21,319 nucleotides of DNA from a virus. Position numbers and translations under genes: made by a program. The DNA lies in IMG/VR virus record IMGVR_UViG_3300044972_002084, positions 1 through 21,319 of that record; one strand, 5' to 3'. Of this stretch, positions 3,688-19,707 are shown one piece after another. Under the pieces are notes generated by a model, which was not told where the DNA came from, did not search any database, and saw only the letters and a list, made by a program, of their open reading frames with translations. The first letter of the stretch is position 1. Every line of letters starts with the position of its first letter.

Positions 3688-3773
3688 AGTCAGGTAGCTC
3701 AGAGGTCAGAGCATGATATGCTGTAACCAATCAGGATTTTCAGAGGTCACAGGTTCGAATCCTGTCCTGACTA
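3688..3773 (+). tRNA. tRNA-Tyr (GTA), probable
   Basis: Acceptor AGTCAGG pairs with CCTGACT. The D-stem is GCTC/GAGC. The T-arm is ACAGG-TTCGAAT-CCTGT, and the discriminator is A. The candidate anticodon loop CTGTAAC (3721-3727) gives GTA at 3723-3725. Its stem is TGAT plus TG against CA plus ATCA with one bulged A (3718), which is not canonical. A long variable region (class II, as expected for bacterial tRNA-Tyr) separates it from the T-stem. CCA is not encoded. The fold is good at both ends and irregular in the anticodon stem. Confidence 0.65.
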
Positions 3774-3931
3774 CGATGAACAACACGGTGGCTTCGTGTT
3801 AAAATGATGGATAACGTGCCAGTGATAACCAATGGGATTGTTTTTAACAATGTACGTGTCACAAAAAGAGTCCCCATTAGGAAGGAAAGTTCTCGCAAAC
3901 CTACTTAGGCTTTGTAAAGTAAAGTCAACAT

Positions 3932-4048
3932 GGTCAGGTGGCGCGATGGTATGACGCTCCATTTAATTGAATGGACTCCTTAAGGAATAGAATGAACTCG
4001 AGATAGTTTTATTCTGGAGGTTCTCAGGTTCGAATCCTGTCCTGACTA
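3932..4048 (+). tRNA. tRNA-like gene, leucine-type body with a giant variable-region hairpin
   Basis: Acceptor GGTCAGG pairs with CCTGACT (one G-T pair). The D-arm GCG...CGC matches leucine tRNAs, and the T-arm is TCAGG-TTCGAAT-CCTGT with a T-T mismatch at its base. An anticodon-like hairpin TCCATT/AATGGA (3958-3975) has a 6-nt loop, or 8 nt if shortened to five pairs, so the anticodon is uncertain; TAA is possible. Before the T-arm, a 44-nt block (3976-4019) folds into an extended hairpin: CTCC/GGAG, AGAAT/ATTCT and AACT/AGTT. Total length is 117 nt, about 30 nt more than normal. It could be an insert-bearing tRNA, a tRNA-like RNA or a pseudogene. Confidence 0.5.
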
Positions 4049-4129
4049 CAAAATCCTGCTTATTGACTGATGAGTGAAAGACCTCAAAATTACAATAAGG
4101 TGGTTGACAGCTGGAAAGACAGCAAATAT

Positions 4130-4282
4130 GGCTCTATAGCAAGCTCAGGTAGCTCCTGGACGCTGCGAGTGGGTGAATGAGGGTAATTTGTTAGTAACTC
4201 TCCTTAATACTAGGATCGGAGTATCAAAGTTGAAGCATATTACAAGTAATTCACAAGGTGGGTTCGATTCCTACTAGAGCTA
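4130..4282 (+). tRNA. tRNA-like gene with large inserts, isotype unknown
   Basis: The T-arm GTGGG-TTCGATT-CCTAC and the acceptor 3' strand TAGAGCT plus A are clear. The best 5' acceptor strand is GGCTCTA at 4130-4136 (seven pairs), which implies 13 extra nt before the D-arm TAGCTC...GAGT. A nearer alternative is AGCTCAG at 4142, with a mismatch. The likely anticodon stem TGAAT (4174-4178) / ATTCA (4249-4253) encloses about 70 nt and leaves a normal 4-nt variable loop. The insert contains its own hairpins (ATACT/AGTAT, GTAAT/ATTAC). The anticodon cannot be read until any insert boundaries are known. Confidence 0.45.
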
Positions 4283-4285
4283 CTA

Positions 4286-4418
4286 TCATAAACACGCGGA
4301 AAAGGTAGAAGGGTAATTCCTACGTGATAAAATAGTATAGGCGATCTTAGATTTCCTCGAATCTAGTTAGATTGGTAATGGCTAGACGCGGGTACCACCA
4401 ATGGCCTCGGTTTATGAT
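4286..4418 (+). repeat. Long-range inverted repeat enclosing a structured spacer
   Basis: ATCATAAAC at 4286-4294 is perfectly complementary to GTTTATGAT at 4410-4418. The enclosed ~115 nt hold further pairings, such as TAGATT/AATCTA around 4350 and ATTGGT/ACCAAT around 4371-4402. No T-arm is present, so I do not call a tRNA. It is probably a structured spacer of the array transcript or an uncharacterised small RNA. Confidence 0.35.
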
Positions 4419-4431
4419 TTTATTGTGTTCT

Positions 4432-4445
4432 CCCTTGAGAAAGGA
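4432..4445 (+). repeat. GNRA-type hairpin, copy 2 (CCCTTGAGAAAGGA)
   Basis: Identical to the 14-mer at 3571-3584 and again a CCTT-GAGA-AAGG hairpin. It follows GTGTTC (4425-4430), whose complement GAACAC lies at 4494-4499. A further small hairpin, GAGGG/CCCTC (4501-4517), precedes the next tRNA. Confidence 0.5.
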
Positions 4446-4521
4446 TAAAGAATGTACTAAGCTGATTGCAGTAATGCATGTAATACCTGTACGGAACACA
4501 GAGGGAGTCTCACCCTCAACT

Positions 4522-4603
4522 GCGCGAGTGGTGGAATTGGTAGTCATGCTAGATTTAGGATCTAGTGCCGTAAGGCGTGTGGGTTCGAGTCCCACCTTGC
4601 GTA
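4522..4603 (+). tRNA. tRNA-Leu (TAG)
   Basis: The one fully canonical tRNA of the array. Acceptor is GCGCGAG/CTTGCGT, D-stem GTG/CAT, and anticodon stem CTAGA/TCTAG with loop TTTAGGA, which gives anticodon TAG at 4556-4558. A class II variable arm has a GCC/GGC stem, and the T-arm is GTGGG-TTCGAGT-CCCAC with discriminator A. It reads CUA/CUG leucine codons. CCA is not encoded, as usual in Bacteroidota. Confidence 0.93.
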
Positions 4604-4640
4604 CAGGCAGAAGCTCAACTGAAGAAAAAATAGAGCTGAT

Positions 4641-4759
4641 AGTCAAGTGGCGGAATGGTAGACGCGCCTATCCCTTGTTTAGGGGTGAAGTCAATAGGTT
4701 AATGTGGTATCCAAAGACTCTTGTCACATACTTTACAGGTTCGAGTCCTGTCTTGATTA
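4641..4759 (+). tRNA. tRNA-like gene, leucine-type body with anticodon-loop and variable-region inserts
   Basis: Acceptor AGTCAAG/CTTGATT and D-arm GCG-GAATGGTAGA-CGC are typical of leucine tRNAs, with T-arm ACAGG-TTCGAGT-CCTGT and discriminator A. The stem CCTAT (4667-4671) / ATAGG (4694-4698) is perfect but encloses 22 nt instead of 7, including a CCCT/AGGG mini-hairpin. The variable region holds an ATGTG/CACAT stem (4702-4706, 4725-4729). Length is 119 nt. A competing fold, ATCCC-TTGTTTA-GGGGT, gives a 7-nt loop but is displaced from the D-arm. The anticodon is unresolved. Confidence 0.55.
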
Positions 4760-4760
4760 C

Positions 4761-4777
4761 GATGTTGGGTAGCTCCC
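4761..4777 (+). repeat. Direct repeat GATGTYGGGTAGCTCCC, copy 1
   Basis: Found again at 4883-4899 with one difference in 17 (T to C). It forms a small hairpin, TTGGG-TAGCT-CCCAA. The TAGCTC core looks like the start of a D-arm, so the repeats may be fragments of tRNA duplications. Confidence 0.5.
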
Positions 4778-4836
4778 AAATGAACTTAGGGCGGTATCGG
4801 GCTAGCCTAAGAGAGATTGAAAAAAAGCCCGTACAT

Positions 4837-4929
4837 AGTCAGGTTTGGTACAAGGTCGGTTCGAGTCCGATGGAAGGTCGTGGATGTCGGGTAGCTCCCT
4901 GTATCAAGGTTCGATTCCTTGACTGACTA
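4837..4929 (+). tRNA. Composite tRNA-like gene with a nested second T-arm
   Basis: Acceptor AGTCAGG (4837-4843) pairs with ACTGACT (4922-4928) at six of seven positions. The terminal T-arm is CAAGG-TTCGATT-CCTTG, followed by discriminator A. Inside lies a complete second T-arm, GTCGG-TTCGAGT-CCGAT (4855-4871), and the second copy of the GATGTYGGGTAGCTCCC repeat. No canonical anticodon arm is seen. It may be a recombinant of two tRNAs, a permuted arrangement or a pseudogene. Confidence 0.4.
4883..4899 (+). repeat. Direct repeat GATGTYGGGTAGCTCCC, copy 2
   Basis: Second copy of the 17-mer at 4761-4777, differing at one base. It lies inside the composite tRNA-like gene, directly upstream of its final T-arm. 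Confidence 0.5.
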
Positions 4930-4989
4930 CGCAAAAAACACGGATGGAGTTTCCCTACCTCGAAAGAGATGGGTTTTAGAAGTTCGGCT

Positions 4990-5129
4990 AGTCAGGTGAC
5001 GGAATTGTCATGGTGCTGGGATAAAAACTGGCAGCAGACATCGGTAGACGTAAAGAATGGGTGGATAGCGTGCCATTGGGGAAGAACCAAGAAAGTTACG
5101 CGTTGCAGGTTCGAGCCCTGCCCTGACTA
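4990..5129 (+). tRNA. tRNA-like gene, leucine-type D-arm split by a 36-nt insert
   Basis: Acceptor AGTCAGG/CCTGACT and T-arm GCAGG-TTCGAGC-CCTGC are perfect. Removing 5008-5043 restores an exact leucine-type D-arm, ACG-GAATTGGTAGA-CGT. The removed piece forms its own TGCTG/CAGCA hairpin. The anticodon-to-variable part (5052-5104) is also about 20 nt too long. Candidate stems there are AATGG/CCATT (5056-5077) and CGTAA/TTACG. Total 140 nt. The anticodon is unresolved. Confidence 0.5.
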
Positions 5130-5224
5130 CACCGTTTACTTGATTCCTGGTAGTAGAGTAAAGACCATTGGAGAATTCGGGATGTCTCGCGAATGGTGGT
5201 GTAAGGTAAGAGGAACTTACAACG

Positions 5225-5289
5225 GTGGAGTACCGGAAACAAAAGAAACGAAGCGCATGGGTGATCATGCGTTGAGCTCAAATCTCCAC
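5225..5289 (+). repeat. Nested hairpin just upstream of the last tRNA-like gene
   Basis: GGTGGAG (5225-5231) pairs perfectly with CTCCACC (5283-5289), and inside it CGCATG pairs with CATGCG (5254-5271 region). Another hairpin, TGTAAG/CTTACA, lies just before at about 5199-5220. The element ends 6 nt before the next tRNA-like gene and could guide precursor processing. Confidence 0.45.
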
Positions 5290-5295
5290 CATAAT

Positions 5296-5364
5296 AGTCA
5301 GGTGGCGTGTTGGCATACGCACCGATCGTAAGGGAGATATCAGGTTCGATTCCTGTCCTGACTA
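5296..5364 (+). tRNA. Short tRNA-like gene with reduced anticodon arm
   Basis: Acceptor AGTCAGG/CCTGACT, a four-pair D-stem GCGT-GTTGGCAT-ACGC and T-arm TCAGG-TTCGATT-CCTGT are clear, and the discriminator is A. Only 19 nt (5321-5339) separate the D-stem from the T-stem, where a class I tRNA needs 22-23, and they do not form a five-pair anticodon stem. Length is 69 nt. No isotype can be given. It is the last member of the array. Confidence 0.45.
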
Positions 5365-5382
5365 CTAACAAATAAAAAAAGA

Positions 5383-5577
5383 ATGAAGTATTTTAAATTA
5401 TTCTTGATGTGTCTTGGATTTATCGTAATCACATCAATGTTTGGCGAATGGATCGTCAGTCGAGAAGTTAATGGGTTCCTCCAGCTTTTAAGTTTCGTTG
5501 GGGTGTGTGGAATCTTTATTTATATAGTAAACGAAACAATAAGTATTTTATTTAAAAACAAAAAACAAAATGATTAG
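5383..5577 (+). CDS. Small two-span membrane protein, 64 aa
   Basis: Two hydrophobic segments (about residues 5-25 and 32-57) followed by a short basic tail (KNKKQND) predict a small inner-membrane protein with two spans. The ATG follows an A-rich leader (AAATAAAAAAAGA) just after the tRNA array. Its last 8 nt overlap the start of the SPFH gene, so the two products are probably made together and may act together at the membrane. No family is recognised. A holin-like protein cannot be excluded on topology, but the lysis genes are elsewhere. Confidence 0.7.
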   Translation: MKYFKLFLMCLGFIVITSMFGEWIVSREVNGFLQLLSFVGVCGIFIYIVNETISILFKNKKQND

Positions 5578-6517
5578 TACCGTAATTTTTTTAGTAGGCT
5601 TAGTAATTGCAGCATTTGTCGCATTTACAACAAGAGATGTAATGTATAGCGTAGAAAAAGATCGTTGGGGCGATGACAAAGAAACCCTGAATATGAGATG
5701 GTTGTTCAAACCGCTTGGCATCTTAGTAGGAGGTTTATTAATTTCAATATTTCAACCTTTTTCACTTGAAAGAGTAGATGCAGGCCATGTCGGTATCAAA
5801 GTTAACTTGACTGGTGATAATCGCGGAGTATCTAGTTATGAATACAAGACAGGTTGGGTGATGTATAATACCTGGACTGAACAGATGTTAGAGTTTCCAA
5901 CATTCCAGCAGCATATTGAATACAAGGATCAGCAAGTGATTACTAAAGGCGGGTTTGCATCAACAATTAAACCGTCATTTAACTATTCCCTAAAACCCGC
6001 TGCAATCGGTAACATGTTTGAGAATCTACGACTAGATATTAAACAGATCGAACAAGGCTGGCTGATGAATGCTATTGTATCTTCAGTAAATGATGTAGCC
6101 AATAAATGGGAAGTAGATGCCATCTTTAATAAACGTGAGGAATTTGAGGCAGCTATTGTAACTGAATGTAATAAAAGGTTATCTAAGTGGTTCACAGTAT
6201 CACAGCTAAGAACAAATATCATACCTCCAGCATCACTACAAAAAGCAATTGAGGGTAAAACAAAAGCAGTTCAAGAAGCTCAAGCCGCTCAACAAAGAAC
6301 ACTAGTTGCCGAGGCAGAAGCTAAAGAAAAGATTGCAATTGCAAAAGGCGACTCTGCAAAAGTTATTATTGATGCTCAAGCATTGGCACTGGCGATGAAA
6401 TTAAAACAAAAAGAGATCACACCTCTGTATGTAGAATACCTAAAAGCACAGAGTTGGAATGGGGTATTGCCAAGCACAGTAGCTGGTGGTTCTGGAACAT
6501 TCCTAAACATCAAATAA
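5570..6517 (+). CDS. SPFH / prohibitin (band 7) family membrane protein
   Basis: Likely a membrane-anchored scaffold that forms ring-like assemblies, as prohibitins, stomatins and HflK/C do. Two hydrophobic stretches (about residues 3-20 and 47-64) anchor it. An SPFH-type domain follows (about 66-220, starting LERVDAGHVGIKVNL, a typical family opening). A long Ala/Glu/Lys-rich coiled coil (about 225-270, EAQAAQQRTLVAEAEAKEKI) and a Gly-rich tail GGSGTFLNIK complete it. The length of 315 aa is normal. It overlaps the small membrane protein by 8 nt and ends 5 nt before the PRPP-synthetase-like gene. SPFH proteins are known in large phages but their role is unclear; membrane protection or protease control are guesses. 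Confidence 0.88.
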   Translation: MISTVIFLVGLVIAAFVAFTTRDVMYSVEKDRWGDDKETLNMRWLFKPLGILVGGLLISIFQPFSLERVDAGHVGIKVNLTGDNRGVSSYEYKTGWVMYNTWTEQMLEFPTFQQHIEYKDQQVITKGGFASTIKPSFNYSLKPAAIGNMFENLRLDIKQIEQGWLMNAIVSSVNDVANKWEVDAIFNKREEFEAAIVTECNKRLSKWFTVSQLRTNIIPPASLQKAIEGKTKAVQEAQAAQQRTLVAEAEAKEKIAIAKGDSAKVIIDAQALALAMKLKQKEITPLYVEYLKAQSWNGVLPSTVAGGSGTFLNIK

Positions 6518-6522
6518 CACAA

Positions 6523-7431
6523 ATGGAAAAGACATTAAATTTAGTAAACCCAAACGATGTATTGTCTTGTAAGTATAAAATTAGTAGATTTCCTGATGGA
6601 CAACAGTCCATCAGGATTCTTGAACATGAATACACAACGTATAATAGTCTAATGGAGCAGTCTACTTCGATCTTTATTAAATCAAGATTAAATACTTTTC
6701 AAGATTTAGAACTCATTATATGTGCAAATCAAGCATTAAAAGAGATTGGCGTAAAAAGCGTAAAACTATATATCCCATATTGTATCGGAGGAAGAAGCGA
6801 TAGAAAGTTTCAAGAAGGTGGAATTAACTACATTAAAACAGTAATTGCACCGATCCTTAATTCACAAAACTTTGATGGTGTTAGTATTATGGATCCGCAT
6901 TCAGATGTTTTAGAAGCGTGCATTAACAATTTTGTAAAATTAGATAATTTTTATTTAGGTTCAATGGCGTTAAAGGACATCTATGGGAATAAGTACAATC
7001 ACGAAGATATTTGTCTAGTCTCACCGGATGCTGGAGCATATAAAAAAGTTTTTGATTTTGCTTCTAAGTACGGCATTAAGAATATTATTACTGCCGCGAA
7101 AGTACGGGATATGGAAACTGGAGAGATTATTAGAACAGAAGTACCTAATCTTCATATTGCTGACCTTGACCACGAACTTAAATACGTTATCGTTGATGAT
7201 ATTTGTGATGGAGGAAGAACATTTATTGAGTTAGCAAAAGTTATTAGAAAGCTAAGACCTAACTCAGAAATTTATTTAGTAGTCACTCACGGAATATTCA
7301 GTGCAGGATTTGGGGAGTTAGGGGAATACTTTGACGGAATTTATACTACTAACTCAATTAAAAACATTTCAAATATGGGTACATCATCAACCCTTAAACC
7401 AATTAATTTTAAACAATTTAATATATTCTAA
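6523..7431 (+). CDS. prs: PRPP synthetase family enzyme (ribose-phosphate pyrophosphokinase, or ADP-ribose pyrophosphokinase)
   Basis: Transfers pyrophosphate from ATP to a ribose-5-phosphate-type substrate. Family marks are FPDGQ (23-27), MDPHSD (123-128, in place of the DLHA metal site), SPDAGAYKK (167-175), AAKVRD (191-196, with the Lys and Arg of the catalytic loop) and the PRPP-binding VDDICDGGRT (224-233). The start chosen is the ATG at 6523, 5 nt after the SPFH stop; an in-frame upstream start would run inside that gene. Length is 302 aa, close to the family's ~315. The next gene starts 1 nt after the stop and encodes a NAMPT-like enzyme. The pair either makes NMN (PRPP plus nicotinamide) or, as in the NARP1 pathway of phages, makes ADP-ribose pyrophosphate for direct NAD+ synthesis. 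Sequence alone does not separate the two here. Confidence 0.9.
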   Translation: MEKTLNLVNPNDVLSCKYKISRFPDGQQSIRILEHEYTTYNSLMEQSTSIFIKSRLNTFQDLELIICANQALKEIGVKSVKLYIPYCIGGRSDRKFQEGGINYIKTVIAPILNSQNFDGVSIMDPHSDVLEACINNFVKLDNFYLGSMALKDIYGNKYNHEDICLVSPDAGAYKKVFDFASKYGIKNIITAAKVRDMETGEIIRTEVPNLHIADLDHELKYVIVDDICDGGRTFIELAKVIRKLRPNSEIYLVVTHGIFSAGFGELGEYFDGIYTTNSIKNISNMGTSSTLKPINFKQFNIF

Positions 7432-7432
7432 T

Positions 7433-9064
7433 ATGAATCCATTATTATTAACCGATGGTTATAAAACATCACACAACAAACAATATCCAGAAGGAACAAC
7501 CTTAGTGTATTCTAATTTTACGCCACGCTCAAATAGGTACGCTCCAAAGGGTTGTAACGAAGTAGTCGTATTTGGAACACAAATGGTAATGATGCAAATA
7601 CACGAGACATTCCAAAAAGATTTCTTTGATAAACCGAAAGATGAGGTTTGTGGAGAAATGAAACGTGAGCTGTCAATGTATTTGGGTATAGACTATGATG
7701 TGTCACACTTTGAAGCATTATGGGACCTGCAATATTTACCGATCATAGTCAAATCATTACCTGAAGGAACAAAGGCACCAATCAAGGTTCCAGTAATGAC
7801 AATCTATAACACACATCCTGATTTCTATTGGATCACCAATTACTTGGAAACAATCCTTTCAAACCTATTGTGGAAACCAATGACCTCTGCAACTATCGCT
7901 CATCAGTATCGTAAGGTACTAACTGAATGGATGGAGAAAACTGACAAAACAAATCACCAATTTATTGATTGGCAAGGTCACGATTTCTCAATGCGAGGTA
8001 TGGATTCAGTTGAGGCAGTTATTAGTTCAGGATTAGGTCACTTAACATCATTCTTAGGGACCGATTCTCTACCTACAATTTATGGGGCACGTAAATATTA
8101 TGGAGCAGAAGGATTTGTTGCAGCATCTGTTCCTGCAACTGAGCACTCAGTAATGTGTGCTGGTGGTAAAGAAGATGAAGTAGCCACATTTCGAAGATTG
8201 TTAAATACTTATCCAACAGGAATCTTATCAGTAGTATCTGACACTTGGGACTTATGGAAAGTATGTACTGAGCATATCATTACTTTGAAAGAAGAGATTC
8301 TAGCTCGTGATGGTAAGTTAGTTATTCGTCCTGACTCAGGTGACCCAGTTGATATTCTTTGCGGAGCTTATAATACTATTAGCTCAGGTGATGAGCAAAA
8401 TTTAGATCATAACTATCCCAAGTATGGCGTAGAAAAAGATAGTCCAGAATACAAAGGTGTCATTGAACTTCTTTGGGACGTATTTGGTGGAACAGTTAAC
8501 GAACAAGGTTATAAAGTTCTTGATCCACATATTGGGGCAATCTATGGAGATTCTATTACAATTGATAGAGCTAACGAAATTTGTGCAAGACTAGAAGCAA
8601 AAGGGTTTGCATCAACAAACGTTGTATTAGGCATTGGCTCATTCACTTATCAGTACAATACTAGAGACACGTTTGGTTTTGCAATGAAAGCAACGTACGT
8701 TGAAGTTAAGCATTGGGATGTTGCAACAGAAAGACTTAATGAGTCCTTCGGTAAAAATGCAAATCCTGAATGGGTTGAAGGAAGAGAAATCTTCAAAGAT
8801 CCAATCACAGATGATGGTACTAAGAAGTCTGCAACCGGTTTATTAAGTGTCCATAATCATGACGGCAAATATGTTTTAATTGATCGTTGTACTTGGGAAG
8901 GTGAATCAGTTAGTTCGTTTCAACCAATTTATAAAAACGGAAAGTTCTTCAATGTGACAACGCTAAGTGAAATTAGAGAAAAGTTAGCACATTCTAACAA
9001 CAAAAAATTAGTTACTAAAGTTCTTGAAATGGCAAACTTGATTCACAAGAGTAAAAATAAATAA
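7433..9064 (+). CDS. nadV: Nicotinamide phosphoribosyltransferase family enzyme (NadV/NAMPT, or Namat-type)
   Basis: Joins nicotinamide to an activated ribose: PRPP to give NMN, or ADP-ribose pyrophosphate to give NAD+ in NARP1-type phage systems. Residues matching the NAMPT active site are visible: YKTSHNKQYP near the start, HDFSMRGM (183-190, with R188 at the human R196 position), GTDSL (D211), ATEHSV (H238, the phosphorylated-His position), VVSDTWDLW (268-275) and VIRPDSGDP (297-305, with R299 and D301). The start is the ATG at 7433, 1 nt after the preceding stop; a longer frame would lie inside that gene. Length is 543 aa, slightly longer than human NAMPT. It is the last gene of the operon and is followed by a tRNA-like gene and hairpins. 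Confidence 0.93.
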   Translation: MNPLLLTDGYKTSHNKQYPEGTTLVYSNFTPRSNRYAPKGCNEVVVFGTQMVMMQIHETFQKDFFDKPKDEVCGEMKRELSMYLGIDYDVSHFEALWDLQYLPIIVKSLPEGTKAPIKVPVMTIYNTHPDFYWITNYLETILSNLLWKPMTSATIAHQYRKVLTEWMEKTDKTNHQFIDWQGHDFSMRGMDSVEAVISSGLGHLTSFLGTDSLPTIYGARKYYGAEGFVAASVPATEHSVMCAGGKEDEVATFRRLLNTYPTGILSVVSDTWDLWKVCTEHIITLKEEILARDGKLVIRPDSGDPVDILCGAYNTISSGDEQNLDHNYPKYGVEKDSPEYKGVIELLWDVFGGTVNEQGYKVLDPHIGAIYGDSITIDRANEICARLEAKGFASTNVVLGIGSFTYQYNTRDTFGFAMKATYVEVKHWDVATERLNESFGKNANPEWVEGREIFKDPITDDGTKKSATGLLSVHNHDGKYVLIDRCTWEGESVSSFQPIYKNGKFFNVTTLSEIREKLAHSNNKKLVTKVLEMANLIHKSKNK

Positions 9065-9116: not shown

Positions 9117-9201
9117 GGTCAGGTGGTGTAATTGGTAACACGTTCCTAATTTAATATGGTGAATACCAGGATTAGTACAGGTTCGAATCCTGTCCTGACA
9201 A
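9117..9201 (+). tRNA. Isolated tRNA-like gene with ~13-nt anticodon-loop insert
   Basis: Acceptor GGTCAGG pairs with CCTGACA at six of seven positions. The D-arm GTG-TAATTGGTAA-CAC resembles Bacteroidota tRNA-Gln, and the T-arm ACAGG-TTCGAAT-CCTGT is identical to those of the main array. The anticodon stem TTCCT (9143-9147) / AGGAT (9168-9172) has four good pairs and encloses 20 nt instead of 7, with an internal TGGT-GAAT-ACCA hairpin. A 4-nt variable loop follows. The anticodon is unresolved. Confidence 0.55.
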
Positions 9202-9211
9202 CAAAAATATG

Positions 9212-9439: not shown

Positions 9440-11086
9440 TTGGCGCCTTTTCATAAACTTGCAGCAATTGCTGTAAAAAAACTATCAAATTTTAAAATTT
9501 CCGGTATTATCGCGCTTTTGATAATGTCGATATTCTTTACGTTAAAGACCTTCGTTACTCTTGATATACTTGAATATTCACGAACGATAGGATTTATTGA
9601 ATACGTGTGTTTTATTTCTCTATGTATACCTGGATACTTTATAGTAAAACAGTTTTTAGACACTAGAAAAGAAATAAATCAATATGCACTTGACGAATTT
9701 AAAACTTTTGTGAACACCGCCGCTCTTGTTTCAATGGCTGATGCTAAAGGCAAGATCACCTACGTAAATGATAAATTCACAAAGGTTTCTGGATGGAGCC
9801 TGGAAGAAGTTCTAGGTCAGGACCACTCAATCGTAAACTCAGACACTCAGCCAGAAGGATATTGGGGAAAAATGTATGCTGATGTCCTAGCTGGAAAAAT
9901 ATGGAATGATGTTGTAACAAATAAAGCAAAGGACGGCTCAGTATATTATGTAGATACTTATATTAAAGCACAGTTCGACCTTTCTGGTAAACTTGAAGGA
10001 TTTATGTCAATTCGTCAAGACGTTACTGATTTGAAAAGAACTGAAAATGAAATATCTAATCGAATGAATGCGATTAACCGGTCAAATGCGGTTATTGAAT
10101 TTGATCTAGATGGAAACATAAAATTTGCGAATAGCCTATTCCTAAAAACGTTGGGTTATTCTTCACATGATGAACTTGTTGGAAAACACCATAACATATT
10201 TGTGGAAGATGAATTAAAGGATACTCGAGAGTATTTAGACCTTTGGGAGAATTTAAAATCCGGTAAATTCTTTACAGGTGAAGTTACTCGAAAGAAAAAA
10301 GACGGATCGGTCGTCTATCTTCAAACAACGTATAATCCAATCATAGGTGAAGATGGGCAACCTTATCGAATAATGAAAATTGCAACTGATATTACTAAGA
10401 GTTATAATCAGCAGGCTGAGATTGAAAAAAAGAATACATATCTTGAACATGCTGCAAAAATCTTACGTCATGACATGCACAGCGGAATCAATACATATAT
10501 TCCTAGAGGATTAAGTTCATTAGAGAGAAGATTAAGCGAGGATCAGGTAAAAGATCTTAAGATTGAATCACCGTTAAAAATGATTAAGGAAGGACTACGA
10601 CACACGCAAAAAGTATATAAAGGGGTTTATGAATTTACTAATCTAGTAAAAAAGGACGTGATTTTAAATAGGGTTGAGTGCAACATTAAAGACATTCTCG
10701 GAGACTATCTTTCCTCGACTGCATATCAATCGCAAGTAATAATTTCAGACTTGGGTCAGTCTAATATAAATGAAGCTCTCTTCTGCACTGCACTGGATAA
10801 CCTAATCAGGAACGGGTTAAAATATAACGATAGCCTCACTAAGTGGGTAAAGATCTCAAGAGAAGAAGATTCAATCATAGTAGAAGATAACGGTAGAGGC
10901 ATGAGCTACGAAGATTTTAAATTATTATCAAAACCTTATACTCGAAGGGAGGGACAGAAAGAAAGTGGGACCGGTTTAGGTTTAAATATATGCGTAGCAA
11001 TATTGGATGAGCACAACTTTTCAATTACATGCAGTAAGTTAGATGATGGGGGAACACGACTAAAAATAAATATTAAAAATGATTGA
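9440..11086 (+). CDS. Membrane-bound PAS-PAS sensor histidine kinase
   Basis: A complete sensor kinase. Two membrane spans (about residues 20-42 and 50-72) are followed by a first PAS domain (about 85-200). This resembles the FAD-binding PAS of Aer, ending GFMSIRQDVTDLK. A second PAS (about 210-320) has the HHNIF and YNPIIGEDGQPYRIMKIATDIT signatures. The H-box is LRHDMHSG with H344, the N-box is DNLIRNGLKYN (453-463), G1 is EDNGRGM (482-488) and G2 is GTGLGL (510-515), so ATP binding and autophosphorylation look intact. The only plausible start is TTG at 9440 (or ATT at 9434), because a stop lies just upstream. The response regulator gene overlaps its end by 8 nt. Sensor kinases are rare in phages. 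Redox or energy sensing is inferred only from the Aer-like PAS. Confidence 0.92.
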   Translation: MAPFHKLAAIAVKKLSNFKISGIIALLIMSIFFTLKTFVTLDILEYSRTIGFIEYVCFISLCIPGYFIVKQFLDTRKEINQYALDEFKTFVNTAALVSMADAKGKITYVNDKFTKVSGWSLEEVLGQDHSIVNSDTQPEGYWGKMYADVLAGKIWNDVVTNKAKDGSVYYVDTYIKAQFDLSGKLEGFMSIRQDVTDLKRTENEISNRMNAINRSNAVIEFDLDGNIKFANSLFLKTLGYSSHDELVGKHHNIFVEDELKDTREYLDLWENLKSGKFFTGEVTRKKKDGSVVYLQTTYNPIIGEDGQPYRIMKIATDITKSYNQQAEIEKKNTYLEHAAKILRHDMHSGINTYIPRGLSSLERRLSEDQVKDLKIESPLKMIKEGLRHTQKVYKGVYEFTNLVKKDVILNRVECNIKDILGDYLSSTAYQSQVIISDLGQSNINEALFCTALDNLIRNGLKYNDSLTKWVKISREEDSIIVEDNGRGMSYEDFKLLSKPYTRREGQKESGTGLGLNICVAILDEHNFSITCSKLDDGGTRLKINIKND

Positions 11087-11510
11087 TTCAATTTTATTAG
11101 TAGATGATGAAAGTTTATTCCACTTAGTGTTTGAGGATGCGTGTAGTTTGCTTGATATTTCGTTATCTTTACAGAGCATCGACAGTTCAGATGAGGCTGC
11201 TCGAATGTTTGAAGAGTGGCAAAAAAATCCAGCAGGTCGACCTGACTGTGTATTTGTTGACTTAAACATCGTCGGCTCATCGTTTGACGGAATAGAATTA
11301 ACGCGTAAGATTAATTTTGAATATGGAAATCATGTAGTTATTGGGATCATTTCATCATCTAATGAGCCAGAAGAACAGGCAAAAGCTCTTCAGGCAGGCG
11401 CACAATTTTGGATTATTAAATCGGATGAGATCGAGCCTAGACTCGAAGAATTTAGAAACGATTATGAATCATATCGAAATAGAACTGCCTCATTTAAAAT
11501 ATACAAATAA
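11079..11510 (+). CDS. Single-domain response regulator (CheY-like receiver)
   Basis: A stand-alone receiver domain of 143 aa with the full phosphorylation site: acidic pair D9-D10 in LLVDDE, phospho-acceptor D61 in VFVDLNI, Ser in GIISSSN (92-93) and K114 in WIIKSD. There is no DNA-binding or enzymatic output domain, so it should act by protein contact, as CheY does. It overlaps the kinase gene by 8 nt and its TAA shares a base with the ATG of the next gene (TAATG), so the three are translationally coupled. The kinase is the obvious phosphodonor. The target is unknown; the next product, a coiled-coil membrane protein, or the holin candidate are the natural guesses. Confidence 0.92.
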   Translation: MIDSILLVDDESLFHLVFEDACSLLDISLSLQSIDSSDEAARMFEEWQKNPAGRPDCVFVDLNIVGSSFDGIELTRKINFEYGNHVVIGIISSSNEPEEQAKALQAGAQFWIIKSDEIEPRLEEFRNDYESYRNRTASFKIYK

Positions 11511-13280: not shown

Positions 13281-13520
13281 ATGGAAAAAGGAGAGCGCTT
13301 CATATTCTATGGCAAATCGGGTGTGGTTAAAGGAACCGTCGCTAGTTCTTTTGAAAAGGTGACATATGATCTTAAGCACGAGGTAAAAGTCATAACTCAG
13401 TATATCGTCTCGACCAATGGCGAGACGTATAATGAAAAGATGTGTTTAAAGATTAAATCGGACATACCTAAGTCCTTCTTAAGAAAACTAGTGAGTCTAT
13501 TTAAGCGAGTCTCTTCTTGA
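13281..13520 (+). CDS. Hypothetical protein, 79 aa
   Basis: Unrecognised basic protein with beta-rich composition (RFIFYGKSGVVKGTVASSF, then KVITQYIVSTNGETY) and a basic C-terminal helix (KSFLRKLVSLFKRVSS). It lies after the lysis terminator. Its last 20 nt overlap the 3' end of the convergent minus-strand gene, so transcription from the two sides meets here. Read-through or a weak promoter would be needed for expression. Confidence 0.6.
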   Translation: MEKGERFIFYGKSGVVKGTVASSFEKVTYDLKHEVKVITQYIVSTNGETYNEKMCLKIKSDIPKSFLRKLVSLFKRVSS

Positions 13521-14364
13521 TCTCTTTGACTGTACCAACTTCACTTAAAAGTATTCTAAAGTTCTCTATCATTACGTTAGTCATAATCGGACTCTCAATA
13601 TCGCTTTTGGATGATTGTGACAGAATTTCTTTTTGGAATGCAAGAGTCTCCTTTAATTTCTCATCAGGCTCCAGTGATTTGATTCTTTGAAGCCTATCTG
13701 TGACCTGCTTGTTAATTTCTTCAAGATTAGGAGTACTTTCTGATTCTAAGTATTTAGGTAACACTGATTTTACCGCGAAGTACCTTAAATATTCATTGAG
13801 TTGCTTAGTAAGAGCCGATACTTTTGACTCATCTGAACTGTATATTAACTCAAAAAATTCGGAGGCGGTCGGTCTAATAAACTGGTGATTGTATGCTGAA
13901 AAAGGCACTGCCGTCTTTTGAGCAGTAGTATTTAATAGCATATCCAGGTCAGTAGTTAATTGTAGTGAATATCTAATTTGAACTGAGTCGTCTCTATGAG
14001 TAAACTTATTCGGATAAACTGAACCCCTTAACTGGGTGAAAAGATTAGTATATGAGATCTTTTTAAAAGGACCGGCTTGGCTATTTGAACTTGCTGGGTG
14101 CACTAGATTGATGACAACGTCTTGGGATTCTCCATAAACTGATGAAAGTATCTCGTCTTGGCTTGAATGTAGAGTCAGGGTAAAAGGTCCTCTACCCTCA
14201 GAAATCTCATACATTGATTCAGGCAGACCCTTTAATATTTCTCTAAGCTCTTGATCATATACTTCATCGATCTCAGTGAGTTCACGCTTAGGTATCTCAA
14301 AGGTATAATAACTCTTTTGAGACTCGTTTAATGTGATCCAATATTTAAAGTCAAGTAACTCCAT
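13501..14364 (-). CDS. Candidate packaged head protein with cleavable N-terminal signal, 287 aa
   Basis: The first 15 residues, MELLDFKYWITLNES, match the pattern aromatic-x-x-W-x-x-L-N-E seen in its neighbours. They look like the capsid-targeting propeptide of T4 internal proteins, which the prohead protease cuts after (L/I)-x-E; here that would be after E14. The rest is soluble, with a beta-rich middle (FTLTLHSSQDEILSSVYGE, RYSLQLTTDLDML) and a helical C-terminus. No enzymatic motif is recognised. Its ATG overlaps the stop of the 119-aa gene (TAATG), so it is the last gene of a coupled three-gene unit. If packaged, it would enter the host with the DNA. Confidence 0.72.
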   Translation of the reverse strand: MELLDFKYWITLNESQKSYYTFEIPKRELTEIDEVYDQELREILKGLPESMYEISEGRGPFTLTLHSSQDEILSSVYGESQDVVINLVHPASSNSQAGPFKKISYTNLFTQLRGSVYPNKFTHRDDSVQIRYSLQLTTDLDMLLNTTAQKTAVPFSAYNHQFIRPTASEFFELIYSSDESKVSALTKQLNEYLRYFAVKSVLPKYLESESTPNLEEINKQVTDRLQRIKSLEPDEKLKETLAFQKEILSQSSKSDIESPIMTNVMIENFRILLSEVGTVKEIKKRLA

Positions 14365-14723
14365 TAATAATTTAAGAATTCTAAGCCCTTTGAAGCAAGC
14401 AGGTCAAATACAGAGTCTGCCGAGTCTTCGTATATAATAACTTCACCTATGCTAAGTACGGCTAGGTTTCGATCCAGGTCAAGTTCCATGTGATAATCTA
14501 ATCCAGAATAATTAAATTTAAACTTGATTATCCCTTCCCTTACCTGTAACCTTACCTCTTCTGCTCCAGACTCTTCTAGATATTCCTGGATGCGATGTGC
14601 GTGATCAATTATTTGATATTCATGTCCATCTTCGCGAGGTGCCTCAAAGTCCTGAAGCTCACCAGAATCGTCGATGTATGCTTCATTGATAAATTGCTGA
14701 TATGTCTTAGCTCGGAAGTTCAT
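14364..14723 (-). CDS. Candidate packaged head protein with T4-type propeptide, 119 aa
   Basis: The N-terminus contains KTYQQFINEAY, very close to the T4 internal-protein signal MKTYQEFIAEA. Predicted cleavage is after E14 (I-N-E). The mature part is acidic, with a DSGELQDFEAPREDGHEYQ stretch, a helix (YLEESGAEEVRLQ), beta-like segments (FKFNYSGLDYHMELDLD) and the C-terminal LLASKGLEFLNY. It is coupled to both neighbours by TAATG overlaps. Function after injection is unknown. Confidence 0.78.
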   Translation of the reverse strand: MNFRAKTYQQFINEAYIDDSGELQDFEAPREDGHEYQIIDHAHRIQEYLEESGAEEVRLQVREGIIKFKFNYSGLDYHMELDLDRNLAVLSIGEVIIYEDSADSVFDLLASKGLEFLNY

Positions 14724-16927
14724 TAAAAATCAGTGGCTATGCTCCATCTTTGAAAACTTGGAGAACTATTAGCAGCATAAAGAAGCTGGAAAGTATAAGT
14801 ATCGCTTAATGTGTCTCCCAAAAATGTTCCGTAAAAAGAATCATCATCTACGACGGTATCACCAACCTCTAGGGTAAACATATCCGTAATAGTTTTAAGA
14901 CTTGTCGTATATCGTTTTTTATCCTCAGCAGTGATTGAAGTGCTTGCGTTTACTCGTAGTGTAATACTATTAACTTCAGGTTGCCATTTAGATTTCCAGC
15001 GTGGCATGAGTTTGTTATCCCAGGCCTCAGATTCCTGATCGTTACCCCAAGTACCAGTGCCACTATATTCACCAAAGTTAGCTTCGCCTTGTCCTTTCTT
15101 AACGTCAATATAAGTATAAATACTTGTTCCAAGTGCTTTTAGTGCTGCATCAATTTCAGCAGTTGTTGCTTGTGTTATTGTTTTAGGCTTAGCTGGAGCA
15201 GCTTGTCCAGTATTTAATGGGTCGCTTCCATATACACTAGTCAAGATTTTCTGTTCTGGTGCGGACTCTTCTTTCCAATTTTTTCCTCCATCTGATGAAA
15301 CTTGCCATTTTTTAGCTGGTGTAAACCTATATCTATTTTGTTGTTTAGCCCAAATATACTTTTTCCCATCCCATGATGGTCTGATAAACCATCCTTTGCG
15401 AGTCCCAGAGATCAACTGTTGAATCACTCGCGGATCAGTTTCGACCGTATATGTAGAGTCAGATGCACCCTTCTTCTTAAAGTGCCATACTTCGTTATTC
15501 ATTCGTTTAAATTCCCAATCCTCATATTTTGGATATATTGGATTATTACCAGGTACAGTACTTTTAGCAGATGTTGAAGTCGACTTTGCCTTAGGTTTAT
15601 GTGTTGGAGTAGCACTAACGGTTGCAGCCGTTGCTGGTACACCAAGATCCTCATTAATGATTACTGAGTTACCGTCTAATCCAAGATAACTAATAGGCTT
15701 CCTAGACTCGGTAATACTTTTTAACTCATTTTGCATTCTTTTAACAAATTCAGCACTAATTGTATTAGGTTCGCGTTCATCCCAAAAAGGCTTATTTAAG
15801 CCAGTCTTTAGTACCTCAATTAGAGCAGCCGTTGTTTTGCCATAATCTCCTATTGGGCTTCCTGCTTTACCGTCTCCAGCCTTTGCCGCAAAATTAGCAT
15901 AAGCTGCAACTTTGCTCCATCCAGCGTTCTTAAGTTTAGTATAGAGAAATTTCTGGAATTTCATAAGCTCAATATTTCCTTTCATACCTAAAATAAATCC
16001 TCCTTCTGGAACCTTAATGTCTCCAGTATCAGGTGTGATTGTTTTAGCGACAGCTAGAAAAGCATCAACATCAAAGCCCGTAATTACATTGGACAGAGTC
16101 TCAACTATTCGGGTAGCTGTGAGACCTAAATAAACTTCTTTTGATTCAGGGATAGCTTGAAGCTTATCATATAGAGTCTTAGTAATATCGACTTCAAGAT
16201 CTTCTCCGAGCTGAGCGTCAAGTATTCCAAAACCTGCGTTTAAAGATTTTACAAATAATTGGGAAGCCGTACCTAATTTTTTAGCTAGAATTTCATCTTT
16301 TACTTTAACCATAAGAGGAGTATTAAACGCAAGAGTCTCCTTTTTAATCTTTTTATAAGCGCTAATAATAAATTGGATTACTTCAGCTTTCGTTGCATTG
16401 AGGATACCTGCAGAAGCGTACGGTAGAGTAAATGTAGGTGCACTTTTATCAATAACTATATTGGAACCGCCTTTAACATTTAATAGTGTTCCGGTTAACG
16501 CTAATTGAAGTTCATTGCGTTTAACAAATCTAACCTGTGGATTGATTCCACCAGTCACGGCTTGATTACTTCCTTGAAGCGAAATCTTACTAACGATTGT
16601 AAACATGATTACCTGTTTTCTATCAGTATCTTTACTTACGTCATAAATAACGATATTTGTATCTAGCTTATTTAACCCAGGATAGTATTCTATTAACTTA
16701 GGTTGAGATTTTATCCATTCTAAAATAGCATCAAATCCTTCAACTGTTAATTTATCATTTGCGTCGATAACGTCCGCATCATTTACTATTTTTAGTTTTA
16801 ATGTTTGTTTGTCAACTGGGATAGCAACTACTTTATTGCTATTATCTCCACGTTCTCTTATTCGGCCTAGTTTATCGTCTTCATTTAAGTTTTTCCAATC
16901 TCCGAATTTTTGAATGATATGGCTCAT
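14723..16927 (-). CDS. Large candidate packaged head protein, 734 aa
   Basis: The N-terminus, KFGDWKNLNEDDK, fits the shared propeptide pattern, with predicted cleavage after E16 (L-N-E). A large first part (to about residue 420) is followed by a second I-N-E site (SVIINEDLG), then a Ser/Thr/Pro/Lys/Ala linker (SATPTHKPKAKSTSTSAKS). A Trp-rich part follows (YEDWEFKRMNNEVWHFKKKG and GWFIRPSWDGKKYIW), then a C-terminal acidic/beta region. The segment around KFLYTKLKNAGW to GDYGKTTAALIEVLK resembles peptidoglycan-binding repeats, but weakly. It has its own AGATAAATAATAAAAA motif upstream. No catalytic function is recognised. It could be an internal head protein or a cleaved structural protein. 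Confidence 0.75.
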   Translation of the reverse strand: MSHIIQKFGDWKNLNEDDKLGRIRERGDNSNKVVAIPVDKQTLKLKIVNDADVIDANDKLTVEGFDAILEWIKSQPKLIEYYPGLNKLDTNIVIYDVSKDTDRKQVIMFTIVSKISLQGSNQAVTGGINPQVRFVKRNELQLALTGTLLNVKGGSNIVIDKSAPTFTLPYASAGILNATKAEVIQFIISAYKKIKKETLAFNTPLMVKVKDEILAKKLGTASQLFVKSLNAGFGILDAQLGEDLEVDITKTLYDKLQAIPESKEVYLGLTATRIVETLSNVITGFDVDAFLAVAKTITPDTGDIKVPEGGFILGMKGNIELMKFQKFLYTKLKNAGWSKVAAYANFAAKAGDGKAGSPIGDYGKTTAALIEVLKTGLNKPFWDEREPNTISAEFVKRMQNELKSITESRKPISYLGLDGNSVIINEDLGVPATAATVSATPTHKPKAKSTSTSAKSTVPGNNPIYPKYEDWEFKRMNNEVWHFKKKGASDSTYTVETDPRVIQQLISGTRKGWFIRPSWDGKKYIWAKQQNRYRFTPAKKWQVSSDGGKNWKEESAPEQKILTSVYGSDPLNTGQAAPAKPKTITQATTAEIDAALKALGTSIYTYIDVKKGQGEANFGEYSGTGTWGNDQESEAWDNKLMPRWKSKWQPEVNSITLRVNASTSITAEDKKRYTTSLKTITDMFTLEVGDTVVDDDSFYGTFLGDTLSDTYTFQLLYAANSSPSFQRWSIATDF

Positions 16928-16943
16928 AGTGATGGGCTTATTA

Positions 16944-16959
16944 TTTTTATTATTTATCT
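16944..16959 (-). promoter_or_regulatory. AGATAAATAATAAAAA motif upstream of the 734-aa gene
   Basis: Exact copy on the minus strand of the motif before the histidine kinase. It ends 16 nt before the ATG at 16927 and overlaps the last codons and stop of the upstream 115-aa gene (the GAT AAA TAA codons). Confidence 0.5.
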
Positions 16960-17297
16960 GAGATCCCAGCCTCAGTTTTATGTAGATCTTCCCAATATTG
17001 ATTAAATGCTTTCTGCATAGAATCTTTTTCGTCGACCGTTAATGCTCTACCCTCATTTTCCCAAACGGTTACGACTATTTCCTGCAAGTCCGGAGTCAGA
17101 CTGTGCCATGTTAATATCTCTAATCCGTTAGAGTCGATCATTCTTTCAAACCTGATAGCATAATCACAAAAGCTTCGTAGTGTTGGACAATCCTCCTTTC
17201 TTACGTGTTGAGTCAATAGTGTAAACCATGAGTGGTGGTGTTGGCTAGTTTCCCATTTCTCGAGAAAATCTAGACGGTCAGTATCAGTAAATTTCAT
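16950..17297 (-). CDS. Hypothetical protein, 115 aa
   Basis: Unrecognised helical, acidic protein with many Trp and His residues (LEKWETSQHHHSWFTLLTQH). It lacks the (L/I)-N-E propeptide of its neighbours, so it is probably not packaged by that route. Its ATG faces the divergent sigma factor gene across a 98-nt AT-rich spacer. Its stop region contains the promoter-like motif for the 734-aa gene. Confidence 0.7.
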   Translation of the reverse strand: MKFTDTDRLDFLEKWETSQHHHSWFTLLTQHVRKEDCPTLRSFCDYAIRFERMIDSNGLEILTWHSLTPDLQEIVVTVWENEGRALTVDEKDSMQKAFNQYWEDLHKTEAGISDK

Positions 17298-17395
17298 ATT
17301 TTTCTTTTATTTTATTTAAACTCTTAATTTTTTTTTAGTTCTTTAATCAACCGGACAATAGTTAATATTTAAAAACAACCATTAATTTTAAAATT
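17298..17395. promoter_or_regulatory. Divergent AT-rich intergenic spacer, probable promoters
   Basis: A 98-nt spacer between a minus-strand gene and the plus-strand sigma factor. It includes TTAATATTTAAAAAC before the GTG of the sigma gene. On the minus strand, GTTTAAATAAAATAAAAG lies before the 115-aa gene and loosely resembles the AGATAAATAATAAAAA motif. Two outward promoters are expected; exact sites cannot be fixed. Confidence 0.4.
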
Positions 17396-18292
17396 GTGAG
17401 ACAATTAAAAATCACATCGGATCGAATGACTAATCGAACTGAAAACATTTCAAGATACTTCACTGAGGTTTCAGGTATCCCTATTCTTAGCTCAGATGAA
17501 GAGTTTGAGATTGGAATGAGAGCTCAACAAGGAGATCCAGAAGCTATCGAAAAACTGATTTCATCGAATCTTAGATTCGTGGTCTCAGTAGCAAAACAGT
17601 ATTCTAATCCAGATGCCTCGTTAGATGACCTGATTTGTCAAGGCAATATTGGTCTTTGTGACGCAGCTAGACAATTTGATCCAACTCGAGGCTTTAAGTT
17701 TATCTCATTTGCGGTTTGGCACATTAGAAAGGAGATACTCGTATACCTAAATTCTGAGACCCGAACAGTAAGGGTTCCTCAAAACATCTTAACTGACCTT
17801 CGAAAGATTCGAAAAGCGAATGAAATGATAATGCAGGAAGAGGGTAGGATCGGAACTGCAGTTGAGCTTGAAGAAAGAATATCTCAATTCTCGAACAAGG
17901 AGATAACTGCTGATAAGATTCAAAAGATTATTCAAGCTGAAACCAAAGGAATAGCATTAGACGCTACTAGCACAGATGATGCTCTTTCACCGATTGATTG
18001 GTTGAGTTCTGAAATCAACACGACTAGTCTGACTGACGAATCTGACTTGACTAGAACAGTTAACCTTGCTCTATCTAAATTGACTTTGATTCAAAGGGAT
18101 GTAGTCTGTAGAAAAATGGGACTAAACGGCATGGAACCTGAACACTTTTCAACGATCGCTCGTAGGTATGAACGAACTACTGAATGGGCAAGATCGCTAT
18201 ATGTTAGATGTATTCGAATAATGTATGTAAAACTTAGAACCAATCAGGATATTCCTAATCTACTTTCTGATCAAGAGGTTTGGTCAAAGTAA
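17396..18292 (+). CDS. Sigma-70 family factor of Bacteroidota primary (SigA/RpoD) type
   Basis: Directs RNA polymerase to promoters. It begins MRQLKIT (GTG start), the same opening as the primary sigma factor of Bacteroidota from memory, which supports this start and a host origin. Region 1.2/2 is at about 17-118 (NLRFVVSVAKQY, DLICQGNIGL, GFKFISFAVWHIRKEI), region 3 at about 120-195 (RTVRVPQN onward) and region 4 at about 215-282. The region 4 helix-turn-helix reads FSTIARRYERTTEWARSLYVRCIR instead of the usual TRERVRQI type, and the region 2.4 aromatic WW is WH. Promoter specificity has therefore probably shifted. It is encoded alone on the plus strand among minus-strand late genes and converges by 22 nt with the 190-aa gene. 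It may replace a T4 gp55-like late factor. Confidence 0.92.
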   Translation: MRQLKITSDRMTNRTENISRYFTEVSGIPILSSDEEFEIGMRAQQGDPEAIEKLISSNLRFVVSVAKQYSNPDASLDDLICQGNIGLCDAARQFDPTRGFKFISFAVWHIRKEILVYLNSETRTVRVPQNILTDLRKIRKANEMIMQEEGRIGTAVELEERISQFSNKEITADKIQKIIQAETKGIALDATSTDDALSPIDWLSSEINTTSLTDESDLTRTVNLALSKLTLIQRDVVCRKMGLNGMEPEHFSTIARRYERTTEWARSLYVRCIRIMYVKLRTNQDIPNLLSDQEVWSK

Positions 18293-18843
18293 CCTTTACG
18301 AGTATTACGCTTAACTGAGAATCGTGGATCGTCGAAGTCAATGTGATCAAGGATCCACCTCATAGCAACCCGATAGAACTGATCACCTGGTACAAAATTT
18401 AACCGCTTGATCCCAATATCCATTGAACCGATTCCATATGGAGACCTGCCTCGAACTCCCATAGGTATTCCCTTTGGCATCATTCGACGTATCAACATTA
18501 TTTCAGGAAAGAGACCGATTGCGTACCCATTATGTCGACGATACCCAGGATATGCAAATATGATGCTACCGTTTAGTAACTGAGTTCTAGACGACACAAG
18601 CTCAAGCCCTTTTTCTTGGAGTTCTCGATATTCTGGTAATTGAGTGATTTCCGCAAGTTTTGGGTCGTGCTTAATTAGAGCAGCAGACCCTTTCCCTTTA
18701 AGAAAATCACGAATTTCTTGTTGATCGACCATGCCAAGGTCAGCCAATTGGCGAAGATCCTCAATCTTTTGAGTTATCTCTTCTTCTGACTCGTTCTCAA
18801 ACAGGCTAGACCATTCCTTAAAACCGGCTACGAAATTCTTCAA
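18271..18843 (-). CDS. Candidate packaged head protein with N-terminal signal, 190 aa, TTG start
   Basis: The N-terminus is MKNFVAGFKEWSSLFENE. Its F-x-x-W-x-x-L-x-E pattern matches the neighbours, with predicted cleavage after E16 (L-F-E). The only possible start is TTG, because a TAA lies just upstream. The C-terminal half contains GSIIFAYPGYRRHNGYAIGLFPEIMLIRR and a Gly/Arg-rich PMGVRGRSPYGIGSMDIG stretch; I do not recognise the fold. It is preceded by the AGATAAATAATAAAAA motif and a terminator hairpin, so it is probably its own transcription unit. Its 3' end overlaps the sigma factor gene on the other strand. Confidence 0.72.
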   Translation of the reverse strand: MKNFVAGFKEWSSLFENESEEEITQKIEDLRQLADLGMVDQQEIRDFLKGKGSAALIKHDPKLAEITQLPEYRELQEKGLELVSSRTQLLNGSIIFAYPGYRRHNGYAIGLFPEIMLIRRMMPKGIPMGVRGRSPYGIGSMDIGIKRLNFVPGDQFYRVAMRWILDHIDFDDPRFSVKRNTRKGYFDQTS

Positions 18844-18852
18844 GACTTAAGT

Positions 18853-18868
18853 TTTTTATTATTTATCT
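18853..18868 (-). promoter_or_regulatory. AGATAAATAATAAAAA motif upstream of the 190-aa gene
   Basis: Third exact copy of the 16-mer. It ends 9 nt before the TTG start at 18843 and lies just after a terminator hairpin, which suits a promoter. Confidence 0.55.
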
Positions 18869-18878
18869 AAGACAAGCA

Positions 18879-18933
18879 AGCCCGAACTCTCGCTCGGGCT
18901 GACCGTAAATCGCCTAGGGTAGCAGACGATTTA
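18879..18933 (-). terminator. Tandem hairpins, terminator for the upstream minus-strand genes
   Basis: AGCCCGA (18879-18885) pairs with TCGGGCT (18894-18900) around an 8-nt loop, followed on the minus strand by T-rich TTGCTTGTCTT. A second perfect hairpin, TAAATCG (18906-18912) with CGATTTA (18927-18933), overlaps the end of the 134-aa gene. Confidence 0.7.
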
Positions 18934-19335
18934 GATTAATCCTAATTCTCTAAGCATGTCATCAGCGCTCTTTTCGTGACGAGCTTCATCACCGGAAAGT
19001 TGCTTATATCTCTTGATTTCCATGATATCGTGCTTAGTAAGTTCCCTATTGTCCATGCTAAGTAGTGGATAGATTTGTTTAAAGTACTTTGCCCAAACGG
19101 GTTTCATCTTTTTAAAGATGAGTCCCTTTAGTTCAGAGTTATCATATAGATCCATCATGCCGTGAAACCAAATCATTAGCGCACTGGTCTGAAGTCGACC
19201 GTTTGCTGCATCTACTTCAAAGTCAGCAGTTAGTGTATCTGCTCTTTCAATAATTTCTTTTTCCTGATCATCGCTCTCGTTTAGTCGAATCCAAGTATTA
19301 AAATTTTCTACGCATCTGTGTCGAGTCATAGCCAT
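18931..19335 (-). CDS. Candidate packaged head protein with N-terminal signal, 134 aa
   Basis: The N-terminus contains NFNTWIRLNESDD, matching the F-x-x-W-x-x-L-N-E pattern, with predicted cleavage after E20. An ATG at residue 3 is an alternative start and would place the motif at the usual distance. The mature part is helical and charged, rich in Met and Trp (MIWFHGMMDLYDNSELKG), ending DMLRELGLI. The upstream leader contains AGAATAAATAAAAATAAAAC, a variant of the promoter-like motif. Terminator hairpins follow. No known function. Confidence 0.72.
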   Translation of the reverse strand: MAMTRHRCVENFNTWIRLNESDDQEKEIIERADTLTADFEVDAANGRLQTSALMIWFHGMMDLYDNSELKGLIFKKMKPVWAKYFKQIYPLLSMDNRELTKHDIMEIKRYKQLSGDEARHEKSADDMLRELGLI

Positions 19336-19344
19336 GTTTTATTT

Positions 19345-19707
19345 TTATTTATTCTTGTTTCGTATGAGTAATTCTCCGATCACCTCTATCTTACCGACAA
19401 GTCTCTGAAACTCTACCTGTTCTAATTTAATCTTGCCTGAAGTTCCACGAGCTAGGTCCTTTACTAACGTGTTTAATTCAGACTCAAAGGATTTTAGATC
19501 AAGCTTGCCAGAGGCTGCCTTCTTGTAATAAGGAAGCTTTACCACGAAATGTTGATAGGTAAGTAGAGCAGAACCACCTTTTGCCTTAGCTGCATCTGAG
19601 ATTTTGGTTGCTCCTTCTAGACGAGCCTTTGCGAACTCTTCAAAGGTTAAGTCTTGAGTCTTGGCCTCATTAATAAAGAGGGAATAGGCTTTAATTAGGT
19701 CTTGCAT
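19345..19707 (-). CDS. Candidate packaged head protein with T4-type propeptide, 120 aa
   Basis: The N-terminus is MQDLIKAYSLFINEAKTQD. YSLFINEA aligns with the T4 internal-protein signal YQEFIAEA, with predicted cleavage after E14 (I-N-E). The mature part is a basic, helical protein (LTFEEFAKARLEGATK, KLPYYKKAASGKLDLKS, ending LLIRNKNK), a composition common in T4 internal proteins that bind DNA in the head. It lies 9 nt before the next gene in the transcription direction. Confidence 0.76.
   Translation of the reverse strand: MQDLIKAYSLFINEAKTQDLTFEEFAKARLEGATKISDAAKAKGGSALLTYQHFVVKLPYYKKAASGKLDLKSFESELNTLVKDLARGTSGKIKLEQVEFQRLVGKIEVIGELLIRNKNK

Follow-up and report, generated by a model that had tools for sequence, protein, structure and literature searches.

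The NAD+ reconstitution pathway NARP1 has been characterized in the Bacillus phage SPbetaL1 (PDB 9w5w and 9w5x), and its biochemistry and rescue have been published both for this phage and for a bacterial homologue from Paenibacillus foliorum (PMC12774641). In SPbetaL1 the two genes stand in tandem, adps first and namat second, and overlap by 1 nt. Another NARP1 is that of the Escherichia phage Bas63 (MZ501086), while ICP1 counters the Nezha NADase defence by means of NrsAB, a Prs/NAMPT-like pair carrying Adps motifs (PMC11559045). The mycobacteriophage DyoEdafos, with its RyDEP, adds published support for the NARP1 pathway against defences. Canonical NAMPT, as in NARP2, and HdNadV from Haemophilus ducreyi (PDB 9ke8) have in common with these systems the NAMPT fold and catalytic core, but their product, NMN, requires an NMN adenylyltransferase.

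The window, that is the whole stretch of 21,319 bases analyzed here, is a virus contig and a genome fragment without a longer parent. Its plus strand carries an adps-like gene (6523..7431, 302 aa, ATG to TAA), predicted to encode an ADP-ribose pyrophosphate synthetase of PRPP-synthetase fold, and a namat-like gene (7433..9064, 543 aa, ATG at 7433 to TAA at 9064), predicted to encode a nicotinamide ADP-ribose transferase of NAMPT fold. Both frames are intact and a single base (7432) separates them, just as the earlier note described a PRPP-synthetase-like and an NAMPT-like gene side by side with a 1-nt gap; the order and tandem arrangement are those of SPbetaL1, where the genes overlap instead. 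Mechanical ORF calls use earlier TTG starts (6454 and 7331), whereas the ATG starts agree with the starts of the relatives. Upstream, the stop codon of an SPFH/Band 7 gene (5570..6517, plus strand; Pfam PF01145, 7.4e-20) lies 5 nt 5' of adps, and SPFH relatives are conserved neighbors of the pair, present at 35 of the 100 related viral loci compared.

A search against Pfam, PHROGs, and NCBIfam profiles matches the pair to phrog_619 (5.6e-64) and phrog_448 (2.2e-193). Both genes are present in 81 of the 100 related viral loci (counted without de-duplication), on one strand in every case; adps is upstream in 74 of these 81, 14 of them with a gap of at most 30 nt, and the median gap is 658 nt. 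With such overwhelming profile scores and this recurrence, the family matches are not due to chance. Two shorter contigs, L007 and L008, hold identical copies of both genes, while no near-identical match to the window came up among 50,697 phage records, so that the collection holds no cultured close relative.

The Adps-like protein departs from host Prs at two motifs, as the earlier note had pointed out. MDPHSD (residues 123–128, 6889..6906, plus strand) aligns with VDLHAE of Escherichia coli Prs, and DDICDGGRT (residues 225–233, 7195..7221, plus strand) with DDMIDTGGT. Both deviations are Adps features: Bas63 reads DPHSN at the first motif and matches DDICDGGRT exactly at the second, Bas62 has DPHSD and DDICDGGRT, and ICP1 has DPHSD, although NrsAB is otherwise distant in sequence and belongs to a gammaproteobacterial phage. 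The Adps of SPbetaL1 is about 29% identical to that of the window and has DDLSSFGGT at the second motif. The window protein scores 93.4 bits against the NCBIfam ribose-phosphate diphosphokinase model TIGR01251, below its cut-off of 113 bits, and lacks the DLHA and DTGGT-type motifs of canonical PRPP synthetases. Its AlphaFold model (pLDDT 88.4) finds human PRPS1 as the best solved-structure match (Z 26.5, r.m.s. deviation 2.8, 274 aligned residues, 19% identity). In the tree, it groups with the tested Adps proteins, and five canonical Prs split off at an SH-aLRT of 100; three of these five, and two archaeal sequences, entered the tree as aligned segments from PDB search output, some of them partial. 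A sequence search of our PDB copy found no Adps structure, and the selectivity of Adps is unexplained (PMC12774641), which places residue-level proof out of reach for the window protein. Its motifs, its place in the tree, and the missed Prs cut-off support its assignment as a predicted Adps.

For the second protein, the top sequence match in the PDB is SPbetaL1 Namat (9w5x/9w5w, 509 bits), compared with 425 bits for HdNadV and at most 212 bits for canonical NAMPT; the two Namats are 53–55% identical. In SPbetaL1 Namat, Arg40 stacks on the adenine, and Phe392 and Tyr396 bind it (PMC12774641). All three positions of this selectivity clamp are present in the aligned window protein. Arg35, in the clamp loop TPRSNR (7520..7537, plus strand), aligns with Arg40, and Phe404 and Tyr408, in the helix signature GIGSFTYQYNTRD (8630..8668, plus strand), align with Phe392 and Tyr396. 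The 11-residue stretch GSFTYQYNTRD of this helix is the same as in SPbetaL1, letter for letter. We took as typical of NARP1 a clamp loop with Arg, or with Lys or Tyr followed by a stacking residue, and the window has the Arg. Bas63 Namat, which is more distant, has GSYTYQYMTRD in the helix and Lys, not Arg, in the loop. The aromatic residues are absent from HdNadV, as from canonical NAMPT (Ala and Lys in the human and Xcc enzymes); the mammalian, Xcc, and RB16 enzymes carry A/A/G and K/K/E at these two positions. In a viral sub-clade represented by L011, L015, and L018, Namat has a variant signature, GVGSYSMGYATRDN, in which both aromatic positions are kept.

The NAMPT-like catalytic core of the window protein is complete (Asp8, Tyr10, Phe185, Arg188, Asp211, Arg299, Asp301, and His238). 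His238 (8144..8146, plus strand) lies in the motif PATEHSVM and is the predicted catalytic histidine of NAMPT and Namat, a role drawn from PMC12774641 and from family knowledge. In the alignment with SPbetaL1 Namat, the nicotinamide, ribose, and phosphate contacts are all kept; the sole listed contact that differs is Ala362, which is Ser374 in the window and likewise Ser in Bas63 Namat. The AlphaFold model (pLDDT 84.6) has the Namat–NAD structure 9w5w as its best match (Z 41.8, r.m.s. deviation 1.4, 464 aligned residues, 53% identity), ahead of HdNadV (Z 40.3) and human NAMPT (Z 36.5). Best PDB match, clamp residues, clade, and fold together support the identification of this protein as a putative Namat. 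It differs from SPbetaL1 Namat by two insertions, at about residues 312–340 and 430–448, the first of which is predicted to be disordered. They might be taken as marks of a decayed, non-functional copy, but they fall outside the listed ligand contacts, the frames are intact, all catalytic contacts are kept, and identical genes occur in L007 and L008, so that decay is most improbable.

The earlier note had proposed aligning the pair with NARP1 Adps and Namat and with true Prs and NadV, and the trees put both proteins on the NARP1 side. The window Namat falls inside the Namat clade, with canonical human, Xcc, and phage NAMPT outside at 100/100 (the mammalian row of the tree is entry 2h3b, mouse NAMPT by its title). 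HdNadV also falls inside this clade, where it adjoins SPbetaL1 Namat, and it has served to produce NMN (PMC6095924). The family is therefore functionally mixed and clade membership alone does not settle the substrate; we dropped it as sole proof of function, and the clamp residues carry the assignment. In practice, it is these residues that distinguish ADPR-PP enzymes from NMN enzymes; annotation as NAMPT or Prs, or even the clade, does not.

The position of HdNadV is one reason to weigh canonical nicotinamide salvage, in which a divergent Prs would form PRPP, the NAMPT-fold protein would turn it into NMN, and an NMN adenylyltransferase of the host or phage would finish NAD+, in the manner of NARP2 or HdNadV. 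Namat itself retains PRPP activity in vitro, where it also produces NMN (PMC12774641), so that the clamp residues indicate a gain and not exclusivity. The clamp nevertheless reads R/F/Y in the window and E/Q/R in HdNadV, and both trees exclude canonical NAMPT and Prs at full support. NARP2 comprises a canonical NAMPT, whereas the window enzyme appears, by clade and clamp residues, to be of Namat type. No NMN adenylyltransferase was found within the 21.3-kb window, a genome fragment that ends where the record ends, and to that extent the statement of the earlier note that none is nearby holds. CTP-transferase-fold domains, some of them weakly NMNAT-like, do occur in large phages related to the window through the pair, and PF01467 matches were obtained in 13 of 18 larger relatives. 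We considered these proteins as phage NMN adenylyltransferases and rejected them, as those examined are heptose/glycerol-3-phosphate cytidylyltransferase-like or have a fused CTP-transferase domain. The weakly NMNAT-like domains, where scanned, reach 19–35 bits against NCBIfam NMNAT cut-offs of at least 112, and because they stay so far below we do not count these loci as NARP2. All this leaves canonical salvage an improbable account of the pair. The NMNAT-like domains belong to proteins of about 620–660 aa (L115:235-2082, L112, and L116–L120) whose long N-terminal domain looks ligase-like by eye; behind it comes a CTP-transferase domain in which the motifs GRFQPxxxGH and SATxVR occur.

The arrangement of the two genes is observed, as are the clade, the fold, and the clamp residues, and the pair very probably constitutes a NARP1-type NAD+ reconstitution module. 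It is a new example of the already described NARP1 and not a new system, and the NARP1 reading of the earlier note is supported at the level of both sequence and structure. For the window pair we infer that Adps would put pyrophosphate from ATP onto ADP-ribose to give ADPR-PP, and that Namat would couple nicotinamide to ADPR-PP and so yield NAD+ in one step, with no need for an NMN adenylyltransferase. TIR, SIR2, and SEFIR NADase defences release precisely these two starting compounds, ADP-ribose and nicotinamide, which makes it most likely that the pair serves to refill NAD+ while the phage infects a defended cell; the host is probably a member of the Bacteroidota.

A Bacteroidota host is likely because relatives of the window Namat are found on Bacteroidota chromosomes, and because the viral clade that holds it has a sister clade including Flavobacteriaceae chromosomal Namats, which reach 62% identity to the window protein. 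With this pair, NARP1 extends to a lineage of uncultured phages that probably infect Bacteroidota. In a set of genomes with one per species, the 80 best matches are Bacteroidota, judging from their titles; all 80 carry the Namat clamp signature, and 59 have a complete or partial Adps-like gene within 5 kb of Namat. Chromosomal homologues, published for P. foliorum and observed here in Bacteroidota (L131–L210, for example L135:4117-10074, L165:4156-10500, and L197:2821-6470), have a clamp-bearing Namat, mostly with Adps, as in the window. They differ from it in that they often stand in a larger ADP-ribose operon, and those examined contain NrtR, NADAR, macro, Tpt1/KptA, and metallophosphatase genes in varying combinations.

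The same enzymes and reactions may therefore have been selected for general recycling of ADP-ribose and supply of NAD+, the phage carrying a copy of a host metabolic operon. The frequency of the pair's close relatives on Bacteroidota chromosomes makes counter-defence a likely but not the sole possible role, and the NrtR, NADAR, macro, Tpt1/KptA, and NDT-like genes of some operons suggest a housekeeping ADP-ribose metabolism. Against this, published work on phage NARP1 ties the pair to NADase defences, and we consider recycling as the selected role possible but rather unlikely. Recycling and counter-defence are compatible, and neither excludes the other. The Bacteroidota operons make it testable whether NARP1 originated in ordinary ADP-ribose recycling and was later taken up by phages as counter-defence.

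An NDT-like gene (PF15891) stands between adps and namat, or no more than 1 kb away, in 40 of 83 viral and 21 of 59 bacterial loci that have the two genes (loci counted without de-duplication in either set). Examples are L010:10184-10669, L017:8637-9104, L031:7349-7822, L135:7259-7714, and L131:4559-4987; the gene is absent from the window. Within the collection of papers searched, none joins NARP1 with this NDT family name. The gene is a candidate third component of NARP1. More tentatively, these gene neighborhoods may mean that in Bacteroidota and their large phages Adps–Namat belongs to a larger operon for ADP-ribose recycling (with an NrtR regulator, NADAR, macro, Tpt1, and NDT-like genes), in which the NDT-like protein would be a third enzyme feeding or protecting the pathway and of which the window pair would be a stripped two-gene version. 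The RyDEP glycosidase in mycobacteriophage offers a parallel for an enzyme that feeds or protects NARP1. These two side results, the clamp-bearing Namat common on Bacteroidota chromosomes and the NDT-like gene in many relatives, may outweigh the pair itself.

Several other features were observed around the pair. The window proteins that were put through Pfam include no RyR-domain protein. A thymidylate synthase of 419 aa (158-1417) matches Pfam in three stretches, which suggests insertions. tRNA genes flank the pair (3688-5365 and 9117-9202), and tRNA clusters also lie 3' of namat in Bas62 and in the Serratia phage ChuuTotoro. At 9440-11510, a PAS-PAS-histidine kinase (9440-11086) and a response-regulator receiver (11079-11510) overlap by 8 nt; they have no full-length relative in annotated phages and relatives of 71–94% in further viral contigs, among them one of 304 kb. 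This 304-kb contig with the window's histidine kinase was tried as a complete relative and is without adps and namat. On the minus strand, at 13501-19707, several unrelated proteins share a similar N-terminal stretch (KTYQQFINEA, KFGDWKNLNED, GFKEWSSLFENE, NFNTWIRLNES, and AYSLFINEA), which resembles the sequence that targets T4 internal proteins to the capsid. Similar N-terminal stretches are found in proteins of L031.
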